In this document: positions 5,672-10,975 of the stretch, one piece after another
Layout: every line of letters begins with the position of its first letter
Numbering within the stretch: position 1 is the first letter of the stretch
NCBI GenBank assembly: GCA_905612235.1
Contig: CAJQRF010000035.1
Location: 1-59,845 of the forward strand
DNA length: 59,845 bases
Origin: an uncultured Pelagibacteraceae bacterium
GTDB taxonomy: Bacteria > Pseudomonadota > Alphaproteobacteria > Pelagibacterales > Pelagibacteraceae
Direction of reading: 5' to 3'
The notes under the pieces: generated by a model
What the model saw: the letters and a program-made list of their open reading frames with translations, nothing else
What the model was told of the DNA's origin: nothing
The model's database searches: none
Program-made: the position numbers and the translations under genes

Positions 5672-5745
5672 TGGAGGCCACGCCCAGAATCGAACTGGGA
5701 TGGAAGGATTTGCAATCCTCTGCGTAACCATTCCGCCACGTGGCC
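5672..5745 (-). tRNA. tRNA-Cys(GCA)
   Basis: Reverse complement GGCCACGTGGCGGAATGGTTACGCAGAGGATTGCAAATCCTTCCATCCCAGTTCGATTCTGGGCGTGGCCTCCA. Confidence 0.97.
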
Positions 5746-5899
5746 AATTAGCTCTACGAGGATCAGTTCTCGCATAACTCTTAGACTTTTACACTTTACA
5801 CATTATTTCTACAAGTATGAAAGTAGTAATAAAAATTAATGAAAGTAAGCCAGTACTTCCCAGGATTTATTATTATTTCAAGTTAAAGCTATTAATAAT

Positions 5900-8152
5900 T
5901 TAAAAAGCTAGGGAAGCTTCCATCATAAAAGTGTTTTCGTGGCCTGAATTTTTATTAATTTTTCTTAGTATTTTTCCATTTACATTCCAACTATCAGCAA
6001 AATTAAAATCGAATCCCATGCCAAGCTTATATAATTCTGATGCATCCTTTTTAGCTTTATATGTATAAGTTGACGATGGATCTGATAGATAATATGCAAC
6101 AGCTTCTGAGCTATCACTTTTATCTGAAGCAAATTCAAGTAGGGCGCCTGGGTTAAAAGTATTTCCATTTTTTAATTCTATTTGGTAATTCATTGAAGTT
6201 CCTATAGAAATTATTGATGTTGTTATATGTTGATCTTTAAAATGTGCCGCTGAATCATTTGCATTTTCTGAATATTCATAAAGTTTAGTACGAGCCTCTT
6301 GAATTCGACTATAATAGGTGCTTGTTAATTGATTTAAACTTTTTCTTACAGCAAAGTTTAAAACTCCATAAATTTGATCTCCTGTGCGAGATCCAGTAAT
6401 TGTGTTTGTAGCACTTCTTGATTCTTTGCGTGTTAAATCATTACTAAGATGACCTCCACCTAAAACAAGATCTATAGAATTATTATTTGAACTTCTCCAA
6501 CTGGTATATGTAGTTATGTTTTGTGATCTTATTTTTACTTTAGTGCCACGATTGTTGATATCTGTATTATCATGACCTTCACGATAAGCAATTCCTAAAA
6601 TAGCATTTTGACTGATTGCCTTATCAATTCCAAAAGTTAAACTATCACTATCTGATTTTCTACCTAACGACCCAATTTTAAACTGCCGTTCACTAATAGT
6701 GATGCTTCCAGCTGTCCAAGGAGACCAAGTATTATCAATTTCAGTATACTCAGTTGTTGTAGGATCTTCTGACACAATCTCTTCGTCCGAATACATATAT
6801 GTTGTAATAGGTAAAAAAGCCATCAAAGGATACTGATTTTCGTTATCTAATTTAGAAAATAATTTTATATAATATTCATAGCTATAAGTTTTATTAAAAT
6901 TTATATCCCACTTTTTTAAAATATGTGGATATTCTTTTTCTATTATACGTAAATCAAATTTTACTACATTGTAATCAGTTTGATTTGTTTCTTTATTTTT
7001 ATTTCTGCGTTTAATTTTTTTTCTTGGTTGGTTAATTCTGCTTAGCACAGGTTCTATAGATGAATCTATAATTCTATTTGAAGCTTCAATTTGAGCTTTG
7101 ATCATAGTCTTTAATTCAACATCAAAGATAGTAAATCCAGCTGTACTTTCTGTAGAAGTGATAGTTAATGTTGTTGTAGCTTCAATAGTTGCTGTGCCAC
7201 CCATCCCTCCATATTCTACTACATAATAATCAACTCTATTTTCTTCACCACATGGAAAGTCATTCCATGTACCGTTAGCATATAAATGTAAACAATCCTC
7301 TTGACCGACCGTACCAGCAGATCCATAATCATTTGGTTCATCATCATCCCAATTACCAGCATATGATGAGAGTGAAGCATCTACCGCACAACTATCTCGA
7401 GCGTCAGTACCATGCCCAGCGACTGCTACTTGGCAATGGAAAATTTTTTCAGCTTCAGGACCTGTTATCCACCGCCAAGTACCTTCAGCAGAATCATCTG
7501 ATTCGGTTGTAGAGTTTGCGTAGCTATCAGAACCTGCTGCCCAAATATTTTGGGCTACTTTGCCGCTGACAAAAGTATTTTCGGTAGCGTCTGTAATAGT
7601 AACAAGATACCCTGTCAATCCATTGTAAGTTTTAGATGCAGCTCCAGTTTTGGCATCTGGCCAATCTTTATTTGTGTGAGTTACAAGTTCATAATAATGT
7701 CCATTGCTTTTATTATAAGACGCACCTGTTGGAGTTGCTGATACCGATATACTAACGGAAGAAGTACTACCATCTCCTTTGTATGATAATGTAGCTAGTG
7801 CAGTATTAACCTCAGCTTGAGATCCTTCAAAACCTATTCCATCTGAAGCATTTATAGAATTGCCAGCACAATCCGAAGGTTCACTTGTAGAATCAGCTGT
7901 GTACCCACAGTAACCAGTTCTTTGTTCCAACCCAGCGTAAGTAAGTATTTTTATACTTCCAGCAGTACCAGTCACAACAACAAATACATCAGTTGAAAAT
8001 CCGCTGACCGCAGGAGTAGTTCCCGAATTAGAAACTAAAACAAAGCCTGTAGTATCAGCAGTAAGAGTAGAGGGAAAACTGATTGAAGCTCCATAAGCTT
8101 TAACAGAGAAAAATAGACAGAAAATATATATAGTTAATTTTTTAAAAAGCAT
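5900..8152 (-). CDS. Predicted autotransporter (type V-like): C-type-lectin-like passenger plus C-terminal beta-barrel
   Basis: Signal peptide; CTLD-like segment (WDDDEPND, EDCLHLYANGTWNDFPC, YYVVEYGG); C-terminal alternating beta pattern ending in Phe (MMEASLAF). Confidence 0.75.
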   Translation of the reverse strand: MLFKKLTIYIFCLFFSVKAYGASISFPSTLTADTTGFVLVSNSGTTPAVSGFSTDVFVVVTGTAGSIKILTYAGLEQRTGYCGYTADSTSEPSDCAGNSINASDGIGFEGSQAEVNTALATLSYKGDGSTSSVSISVSATPTGASYNKSNGHYYELVTHTNKDWPDAKTGAASKTYNGLTGYLVTITDATENTFVSGKVAQNIWAAGSDSYANSTTESDDSAEGTWRWITGPEAEKIFHCQVAVAGHGTDARDSCAVDASLSSYAGNWDDDEPNDYGSAGTVGQEDCLHLYANGTWNDFPCGEENRVDYYVVEYGGMGGTATIEATTTLTITSTESTAGFTIFDVELKTMIKAQIEASNRIIDSSIEPVLSRINQPRKKIKRRNKNKETNQTDYNVVKFDLRIIEKEYPHILKKWDINFNKTYSYEYYIKLFSKLDNENQYPLMAFLPITTYMYSDEEIVSEDPTTTEYTEIDNTWSPWTAGSITISERQFKIGSLGRKSDSDSLTFGIDKAISQNAILGIAYREGHDNTDINNRGTKVKIRSQNITTYTSWRSSNNNSIDLVLGGGHLSNDLTRKESRSATNTITGSRTGDQIYGVLNFAVRKSLNQLTSTYYSRIQEARTKLYEYSENANDSAAHFKDQHITTSIISIGTSMNYQIELKNGNTFNPGALLEFASDKSDSSEAVAYYLSDPSSTYTYKAKKDASELYKLGMGFDFNFADSWNVNGKILRKINKNSGHENTFMMEASLAF

Positions 8153-8328
8153 TTATCACTCAATAAACAACAATTAAATTTACTTTATTATGTTATTTCA
8201 TATTAAACAATAACTTACATTTTAAACTAACAACTTTTTACTTTGGAAGAGGGGGACCTTGTTAGCATTTCAGTAAAAATTTATACTGAGCTTGAACTCT
8301 GTCTGGAAAAAAATTAAACTTATATAAG

Positions 8329-10975
8329 ATGCAAAATTCAAATTACAACCACAATAAAATAGAAGAAAAGATATATAAATATTGGGAAAAAAATAAATTT
8401 TTTCAACCAAAGAAGAATAAAAAAAAACACTTTTCTATAGTTATACCTCCTCCTAACGTTACTGGAAGTTTACATATGGGTCATGCCCTGAATAGTTCTT
8501 TGCAAGATTTGCTTGTTAGATTTTATAGAATGAACGACCATGAAACCTTATGGCAACCCGGCACTGACCACGCCGGTATTGCTACGCAAGCTGTTGTTGA
8601 AAGGCAGTTATTAAAAAAAAACATTAAAAGAAATCAACTAGGTAGAGAAAAATTTATTAAAGAAGTATGGAAGTGGAAAAAAAAGTCTGGAGACAAAATA
8701 ATAACACAACTTAAAAAGTTAGGATGTTCATGTGATTGGTCAAGAAATAGATTTACTATGGATGATGATTTGTCAAAAGCAGTTACAAAAACATTTGTTC
8801 AGCTATTTAAAGAAAAATTAATATATAAAGATACAAAGTTAGTTAATTGGGACACAAAATTAGAAACAGCAATATCAGATCTTGAGGTTGAACAAAGGGA
8901 AGTTCAATCAAATATATATTATATAAAATATAAAATACTTCGAGAAAATGAATTTATCACAATAGCTACTACTAGACCTGAAACTTTAATTGGTGATGTT
9001 GCTGTAGCTGTAAATCCTAAAGATTCAAGATATGAAAATTTAATAGGTAAAATTGCTATAGTTCCTATTATTGATAGAGAAGTAAAAATAATATCAGATA
9101 ATTATGTGTCAATAGAACAAGGTTCAGGAGCATTAAAGGTTACCCCGGCTCATGATTTTAACGACTTTGATATTGGAAAAAGGCACAATTTAGATCCTAT
9201 AAATATTTTTGAAAAAAATGGAAAATTAAATAAAAATGCTCCCAAGCAATATATTGGTTTAGATAGATTTGATGCAAGAAATGAAATCATTAAAGATCTT
9301 AAGGAAATAGGTGCTTTAGAAAAAATCGAAAACGTAAAAAATGTTGTTCCTTACGGCGACAGATCTAATTCAATAATTGAACCATTATTAACTGAACAAT
9401 GGTTTGCTGACGCAAAATTTTTATCTAAAAAAGCAATTACCAATGTAAAAAATAAAAAAACAAATTTTTTTCCAAGCAACTGGTCAAAAACATATTTTCA
9501 GTGGATGAATAATATTGAACCTTGGTGCATCTCTAGACAGTTGTGGTGGGGACATAGGATTCCAGCTTGGTATACTAAAGACAAAAAAGTATTTGTAGCA
9601 GAAAGTGAATTGGAAGCAAAAAGTCAAGCTAGAAAATACTACAAAAAAAACGTGGAATTAAAAAGAGATGAAGATGTTTTGGATACTTGGTTTTCATCTG
9701 CACTTTGGCCCTTTGCTACTTTTGGCTGGCCAAAAAAAACTTATGAATTAAAAAGATTTTATCCTACTTCTATCCTTGTAACAGGATTTGATATTATCTT
9801 CTTTTGGGTTGCCAGAATGATGATGATGGGAAACCATCTTTTAAAAAAAACTCCTTTTTCAAAAGTTTATGTTCATGCTTTAGTTAGAGATGAAAAAGGG
9901 CAAAAAATGTCTAAATCAAAAGGTAATGTAATAGATCCTTTAAACTTAATAGACAAATATGGAGCTGACTCTTTAAGATTTACTTTAATATCTATGGCTG
10001 CACCAGGCAGAGACGTTAAACTCTCTGAGGATCGGATCAAAGGGTACAGAAACTTTTTAAATAAAATTTGGAACTCAAATAAATTTTCTCAATTAAATAA
10101 ATGTAAATTTAACAAAAAATTTAAAATTAAAAGTGCAAAACTTGATTTTAATAAATGGATATACTTTGAATTAGTTAAAACGCAAATTTTAGCAAAAAAA
10201 CATATCGCTAATTATAGATTTGATGAAGCGGCCAAAATAATTTATCAATTTGTTTGGCATTATTATTGTGATTGGTATTTAGAATTTTTAAAGCCAGTAT
10301 TTGATGCAAAAGAAAAAAAAAATCTAGCTGAAGTGCGTGCCTTTGCTTCTTATATACAGTCATATATTTTAGTAATGTTACATCCTTTCATCCCATTTTT
10401 TACAGAACATATTTGGTTAAATTTAAAATTAGATAAACACTATAAATCACCTCTTATGTATAAAAATTGGGATTTGACTTATAAACCCAATTTAAATTTC
10501 AAAAGAAGTTATCAAAAAATTGATTGGTTGATTAAATTAATTACCAATATTCGGTCAACAAAGGTAGATTTAGATGTGCCACCTGGATCATTTATTGATA
10601 TGTCTATTTGTGATCTTAGCAAGAATAAACAAGATATAATTTTTAAAAACCTAAACGTTTTTAGAAGAATTGCCAGAGTTATTAATGTACATTCATCTAA
10701 GATCACCAAAAAAAGGTGTTAATATTATAGTTGGTGTTGAAAGTGTTACCTTATTCTTTGATAAAGATGTTAATTTATCTGAGCAAATTTTAAAAATTTC
10801 CAATAAAATTAAAAATTTGGACAGTAAGGTTTTAATACTTGTTAAAAAATTAGAAAATAAATCATTTATAAAAAACGCACCGAAGAGTATTGTTCAAAAG
10901 GAAAAAAATTCATTAACACAATATAATACAGAGCTTAAGAAGTTAAATAGCATTTTTAATAGTATTAAAAATTAA
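8329..10975 (+). CDS. valS: Valyl-tRNA synthetase, reading frame interrupted by an apparent single-base insertion in an A7 run (10708-10714)
   Basis: PPPNVTGSLHMGHAL (HIGH), KMSKSKGN (KMSKS); ORF 8329-10722 ends early; ORF 10670-10975 in the next frame carries the ValS C-terminal arm (LILVKKLENKSFIKNAPKSIVQKEKN). Confidence 0.9.

Follow-up and report, generated by a model that had tools for sequence, protein, structure and literature searches.

Cells of the SAR11 clade are usually regarded as free-living and non-adhesive, and one gene in the DNA studied here raises the question of whether such a cell may carry a glycan-recognising lectin on its surface, and how this lectin varies among relatives. 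The window, that is the whole stretch of 59,845 nucleotides that was analysed, is contig 35 of a 0.84-Mb genome that is 62% complete. A sequence-only reading had proposed an autotransporter displaying a C-type-lectin-like domain (CTLD) in a streamlined planktonic host, a picture that suits a SAR11 relative whose homologues all belong to the Pelagibacterales. The most probable interpretation, held with reasonable confidence, is a surface-displayed CTLD autotransporter with a calcium/glycan recognition head that is exchanged by recombination within the family.

The open reading frame of 750 aa opens with an ATG on the minus strand (Table 1), and the plus strand over the same positions contains many stops; the earlier placement of the frame at 5900-8152 was corrected for strand, and all peptides cited for it were found in the translation. 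Residues 1-21 are hydrophobic and carry an AYG-A as the putative cleavage site, and in the family alignment the homologues likewise begin with a short hydrophobic segment. A Pfam scan returned no family for the following beta-rich domain, in which C82 and C95 are both invariant in the family alignment. In the model, the CTLD appears to sit inside a hairpin of this N-terminal beta domain, and a similar nesting is seen in a protein from outside SAR11 (locus L109, see below). The charged linker announced by the sequence-only reading is seen at residues 377-473 and is probably disordered, judging from the model.

Table 1. Features of the lectin autotransporter locus, in positions of the window.
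Feature	Position	Strand	Basis
Interval from tRNA-Cys (5672-5745, -) to valS (8329, +)	5746..8328		2583 bp in the window
CTLD-autotransporter gene, 750 aa + stop	5900..8152	-	ORF, Pfam, family alignment
N-terminal signal peptide, residues 1-21 (MLFKKLTIYIFCLFFSVKAYG)	8090..8152	-	Read from sequence; cleavage site inferred
Ig/cadherin-like beta domain, residues 22-147	7712..8089	-	Beta-rich in model, without Pfam match
C-type-lectin-like domain (CTLD), residues 148-317	7202..7711	-	HMM, profile, model, fold match
EPN motif, residues 272-274	7331..7339	-	Invariant in 36/36 family members and in the 33-sequence CTLD alignment
E285, corresponding to the third calcium ligand in mannose-binding protein	7298..7300	-	Invariant; MBP-A/SP-D alignments and knowledge of MBP
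WND motif, residues 296-298	7259..7267	-	Invariant (family alignment of 36, CTLD alignment of 33)
Closing strand(s) past the CTLD, residues 318-335	7148..7201	-	Model strands 323-325, 330-333
Long alpha helix, residues 343-374	7031..7126	-	Full-length model
Charged linker, low-confidence, residues 377-473	6734..7024	-	pLDDT about 30
12-strand autotransporter beta-barrel, residues 474-750, C-terminal Phe	5903..6733	-	Pfam, model, Foldseek

At the C-terminus, the autotransporter family PF03797 matches residues 494-726 with 84.6 bits against a cut-off of 26 (E 1.2e-23), and the full-length model places 12 long barrel strands inside residues 477-749. In Foldseek comparisons this model matches the translocators EstA, NalP, AaaA, BrkA and EspP. 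The protein terminates in MEASLAF; some relatives at one of the genomic sites described below (site B) end in a residue other than Phe. From these matches we infer a classical (type Va) autotransporter, with predicted translocation of the passenger to the outside. Like the five known proteins, it combines a C-terminal 12-strand barrel with an N-terminal signal peptide and a passenger. In most of them the passenger is a beta-helix or an enzyme, whereas the SAR11 passenger consists of an Ig-like domain and a C-type lectin, and no beta-helix is seen in its full-length model.

Pfam alone would leave the identity of the lectin unproven, as PF00059 (Lectin_C) scores 17.1 bits with the window protein (E 0.0098), under the gathering cut-off of 22.6. 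Four other lines settle the CTLD. A phmmer search against PDB chains matched mannose-binding protein A (MBP-A; 4.5e-6) and surfactant protein D (SP-D; 1.2e-5) over the EPN...ED...WND stretch (NWDDDEPND...EDCLHLYANGTWND). Both families, PF03797 and PF00059, are matched at E<=0.01 by 36 of 36 members of the family alignment, with a best Lectin_C value of 4.2e-9, and the relatives L018 and L106 score over the Pfam cut-off. The family CTLD profile matches C-type mannose receptor 2 (MRC2) at 2.2e-12. Finally, a model of the domain (pLDDT 82.8, pTM 0.81) was matched by Foldseek to CD23, MBP-A, collectin-11 and the asialoglycoprotein receptor (ASGPR) with E from 1.7e-6, probability 1.00 and TM values, normalised to the target, of up to 0.75. 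The lectin with EPN and WND motifs that had first been placed at 7208-7702 is thereby supported by HMM, profile and structural matches, with slightly wider borders of about 7202-7711, and the Phe-ending autotransporter barrel holds on Pfam score, strand number, fold match and terminus alike. The checks that had been proposed gave a PF03797 match well over the cut-off, the 12-strand barrel in the predicted structure and CTLD folds in the structure search; the PF00059 search was sub-threshold for the window protein and positive at family level. A direct PF00059 search of the own genome gave no match, but the controls were equally without one, which deprives this negative of any weight. EspJ, DUF1885 and other odd Pfam/NCBIfam matches were weak and taken as chance.

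Scanning 84,980 species genomes with the family profile, whose patterns were drawn from the N-terminal domain so that lectin autotransporters without this domain escape it, yielded 51 homologous loci, and every one of them carries the title Pelagibacteraceae, Pelagibacterales or Candidatus Pelagibacter. Passenger and barrel occur together in 17 of 297 genomes of the same family, and within the genus the gene is present in a single genome out of 23, that of the window. The sole other member of the genus with a related barrel (L002, 1252-3393) has an entirely different passenger with repeats like FNNDGTKMFVTG, which appear propeller-like; the barrel family seen there carries several head types. 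In samples of the class and the phylum (385 and 399 genomes), the CTLD and barrel halves were found apart. The single collinear CTLD-plus-barrel protein outside the order (genome G450, locus L106, 661-2670) is 95% identical to that of SAR11 locus L018. Given this identity and a genome that is 79% complete in 100 contigs, a misbinned contig or a very recent transfer is likelier, and the locus was rejected as an independent non-SAR11 case. CTLDs with the GHYY...EYGG frame exist elsewhere too, for instance in L109, a protein with cadherin-like repeats, at 33% identity. In this non-SAR11 locus (45-1229), the CTLD is nested in a cadherin-like repeat hairpin, which suggests that the Ig-like domain and the CTLD move as a single nested module. 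A viral origin was discarded: two scans, one with the single protein and one with the family profile, found no relative in viral contigs, and PHROG matches were weak and scattered.

The spacing between tRNA-Cys and valS amounts to 65-69 bp in nine same-genus genomes, which represent the empty site, against 2583 bp in the window; the gene is therefore an accessory, lineage-specific insertion. Relatives carry it at other sites, with neighbour gene names read from translations: flanked by lpxB and gltX-like genes, after polynucleotide phosphorylase and ahead of an enoyl-ACP-reductase-like gene, beside an ABC-permease and an Asp/Glu-racemase-like gene, and flanked by a large PilY1-like and a prepilin-peptidase-like gene. 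Some copies lie inside clusters of other autotransporters. Gene remnants were detected in L081 (7093-7224, at the lpxB/gltX-like site) and L079 (10001-10276), with 44 and 90 matched residues, and the copy in L017 (1477-3619, same genome as L077) is broken in the lectin domain by a frame change, which reflects either a decaying gene or a sequencing error. Together, the two remnants and the frame-split copy of L017/L077 point to repeated gene loss.

Comparison of the copies in relatives revealed that the two halves of the protein have different histories. Sites B and D each form one fully supported clade in the tree of the barrels, so that the barrel follows the genomic site, and the grouping of the passenger sequences does not. 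With sites defined by flanking genes and passenger groupings chosen after the passenger tree, AU tests rejected the hypothesis that the passengers of one site form one clade, both at site D (p 1.4e-5) and at site C (p 2e-61); on the barrel data, they rejected the passenger groupings (p 6e-54, 3e-57). In the cleanest pair at one site, L064 and L071, the DNA is 97-100% identical across the upstream flank and the signal peptide; the identity drops to 40-85% in the passenger and recovers mostly to 97-100% in the linker, the barrel and the downstream gene (one 60-base window has 88%). The same pattern is displayed by L055 and L066 at a different site. Over ten same-site pairs from four sites, the barrels are 85-98% and the CTLDs 47-58% identical; over ten cross-site pairs the relation is inverted, with 82-84% for the CTLDs and 46-53% for the barrels. 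In other same-site sets, the barrel dS reaches 0.81 and 1.06 and the passenger dS stays <0.1. In these relatives, the lectin head is a cassette that has been exchanged between barrels. Family-wide, the per-column entropy is lower in the passenger (0.74-1.19) than in the barrel (1.46), in line with a transfer of heads from barrel to barrel; a stronger constraint on the head would fit equally. The window copy stands apart from all others, with 57% identity to the nearest passenger and 35% to the nearest barrel, so that the exchange is observed in relatives only.

Most regions and sets have dN/dS ratios well below 1, which indicates that the genes are kept functional under purifying selection; values near 1 occur in two small comparisons of three sequences (D1 lectin regions) with very few changes. 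SAR11 bacteria recombine extensively, and the sequence near the breakpoints is common to sites and alleles, and the heads might be shuffled neutrally by the usual homologous recombination among paralogues or alleles, with no selection for recognition. This explanation survives best among the alternatives and is nevertheless rather unlikely, since the breakpoints bound the same functional unit again and again at four sites and the flanks remain 97-100% identical. In the favoured interpretation the exchange would be under selection, with ligand choice or predator escape as possible drivers.

What the exchanged heads retain is a predicted calcium site. MBP-A binds calcium through E185, N187, E193, N205 and D206, and the alignment to MBP-A and SP-D identifies E272, N274, E285, N297 and D298 as their equivalents. 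None of these five residues, nor P273 or W296, varies among the 36 proteins or among the 33 sequences of the CTLD alignment, against an identity to the window protein of mostly 34-43%. The canonical ligand set of calcium-dependent CTLDs (EPN or QPD, E, WND) is thus present, and alignment and model imply that the five equivalents would cluster in space about a single calcium ion. In animal lectins, EPN is the motif of the mannose/fucose type, and by analogy the bacterial protein may share this sugar preference. Animal collectins and mannose receptors (MBP-A, SP-D, MRC2, CD23) have the fold and the calcium/sugar motif set in common with the SAR11 CTLD, which differs from them by an identity of about 16-24% in fold alignments, larger inserts, a different anchoring and a binding activity that is only predicted.

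Many CTLDs bind no sugar. The SAR11 domain might serve as a stable scaffold for binding a protein or another surface, with EPN and WND needed for folding or calcium stabilisation. Many bacterial CTLDs of known function bind proteins (intimin-Tir, invasin-integrin, Mtd), and the loops near the site are the most length-variable part of the domain (gap fraction 0.34). The invariance of the full E-P-N / E / W-N-D set and the top fold and profile matches, to calcium-dependent animal-type CTLDs, make such a role unlikely. The variant of it that invokes a diversity-generating retroelement (DGR) was rejected: no reverse transcriptase (RVT_1) was found in the own genome with positive controls, though this genome is only 62% complete. 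Most likely, the CTLD binds a glycan via calcium held by E272, N274, E285, N297 and D298.

Alternatively, the protein could mainly be a variable target of phages or grazers, with head exchange driven by escape from predators and not by a ligand. An exposed head that is exchanged on a conserved barrel, the polymorphic presence and absence of the gene, and the location of autotransporters in a SAR11 hypervariable region (PMC2217521) would all agree with this. Pure escape does not need invariant calcium-ligand residues, however, and neither query of viral contigs recovered a phage counterpart; the idea is about as doubtful as that of a protein-binding scaffold. That the lectin recognises surface polysaccharide of its own cell or of kin and aids aggregation or retention, its heads being exchanged to match variable LPS, is conceivable in view of the SAR11 LPS genes in HVR2 (PMC2217521) and yet very improbable, as SAR11 is not known to aggregate.

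The preferred reading of an exchangeable, calcium-dependent glycan lectin translates into the following mechanism. The signal peptide would direct the protein to the periplasm, the C-terminal barrel would insert into the outer membrane, and the flexible linker would hold the Ig-like domain and CTLD outside the cell, export and display being predicted from these parts. By binding a glycan via calcium, the CTLD would act as an adhesin or recognition head, whose ligands may include phytoplankton or particle glycans, other bacteria or the own LPS. Homologous recombination between barrels would replace the head, from behind the signal peptide to the start of the helix/linker, and thereby alter the recognition surface while calcium ligands, signal peptide and anchor are retained. 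A more tentative extension, possible and on balance doubtful, is that SAR11 maintains a pool of exchangeable calcium-site lectin heads on locus-specific barrels, swapped under frequency-dependent selection, so that near-identical co-occurring cells differ in the glycan they recognise.

A similar combination of parts exists in the inverse autotransporters (type Ve) intimin and invasin, in which an N-terminal 12-strand barrel carries Ig-like domains with a CTLD outside the cell; these CTLDs recognise proteins and have no canonical calcium site. The SAR11 protein likewise joins a CTLD and an Ig-like domain to a 12-strand barrel in a Gram-negative cell, but in the reverse order, with the barrel C-terminal instead of the lectin and with EPN/E/WND intact; it therefore lacks the arrangement of an inverse autotransporter, N-terminal barrel and C-terminal CTLD.

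Within SAR11, autotransporters were described in HVR1 of strain HTCC1062 (Wilhelm et al., 2007; PMC2217521), and a large autotransporter adhesin of 5000-9500 bp is found in coastal genomes and missing from offshore ones (PMC12636525). They share clade and secretion type with the window protein, and a lectin is mentioned neither for the HVR1 autotransporters (PMC2217521) nor for the coastal adhesin (PMC12636525). In comparison, the window gene measures 2.25 kb and its family occupies several core-genome sites. Barrels related to that of the window protein are common in the same family according to the genome scan. No paper on a SAR11 or Pelagibacter C-type lectin was found in the open-access literature. 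A surface lectin with an intact calcium site, maintained by purifying selection in some of the streamlined genomes and swapped as one unit, would suggest that specific glycan recognition is a strain-level trait of a clade that is very abundant in the ocean. It also provides a defined protein for testing attachment, phage and grazer hypotheses.

The neighbouring valS gene (8329-10975) is split in the window, a 797-aa frame extending to 10722 and the C-terminal part lying in another frame (10670-10975). The same-genus copies are open frames of 890-898 codons, and a stretch of seven A near 10709-10715 is probably the place of an indel, introduced by assembly or real.
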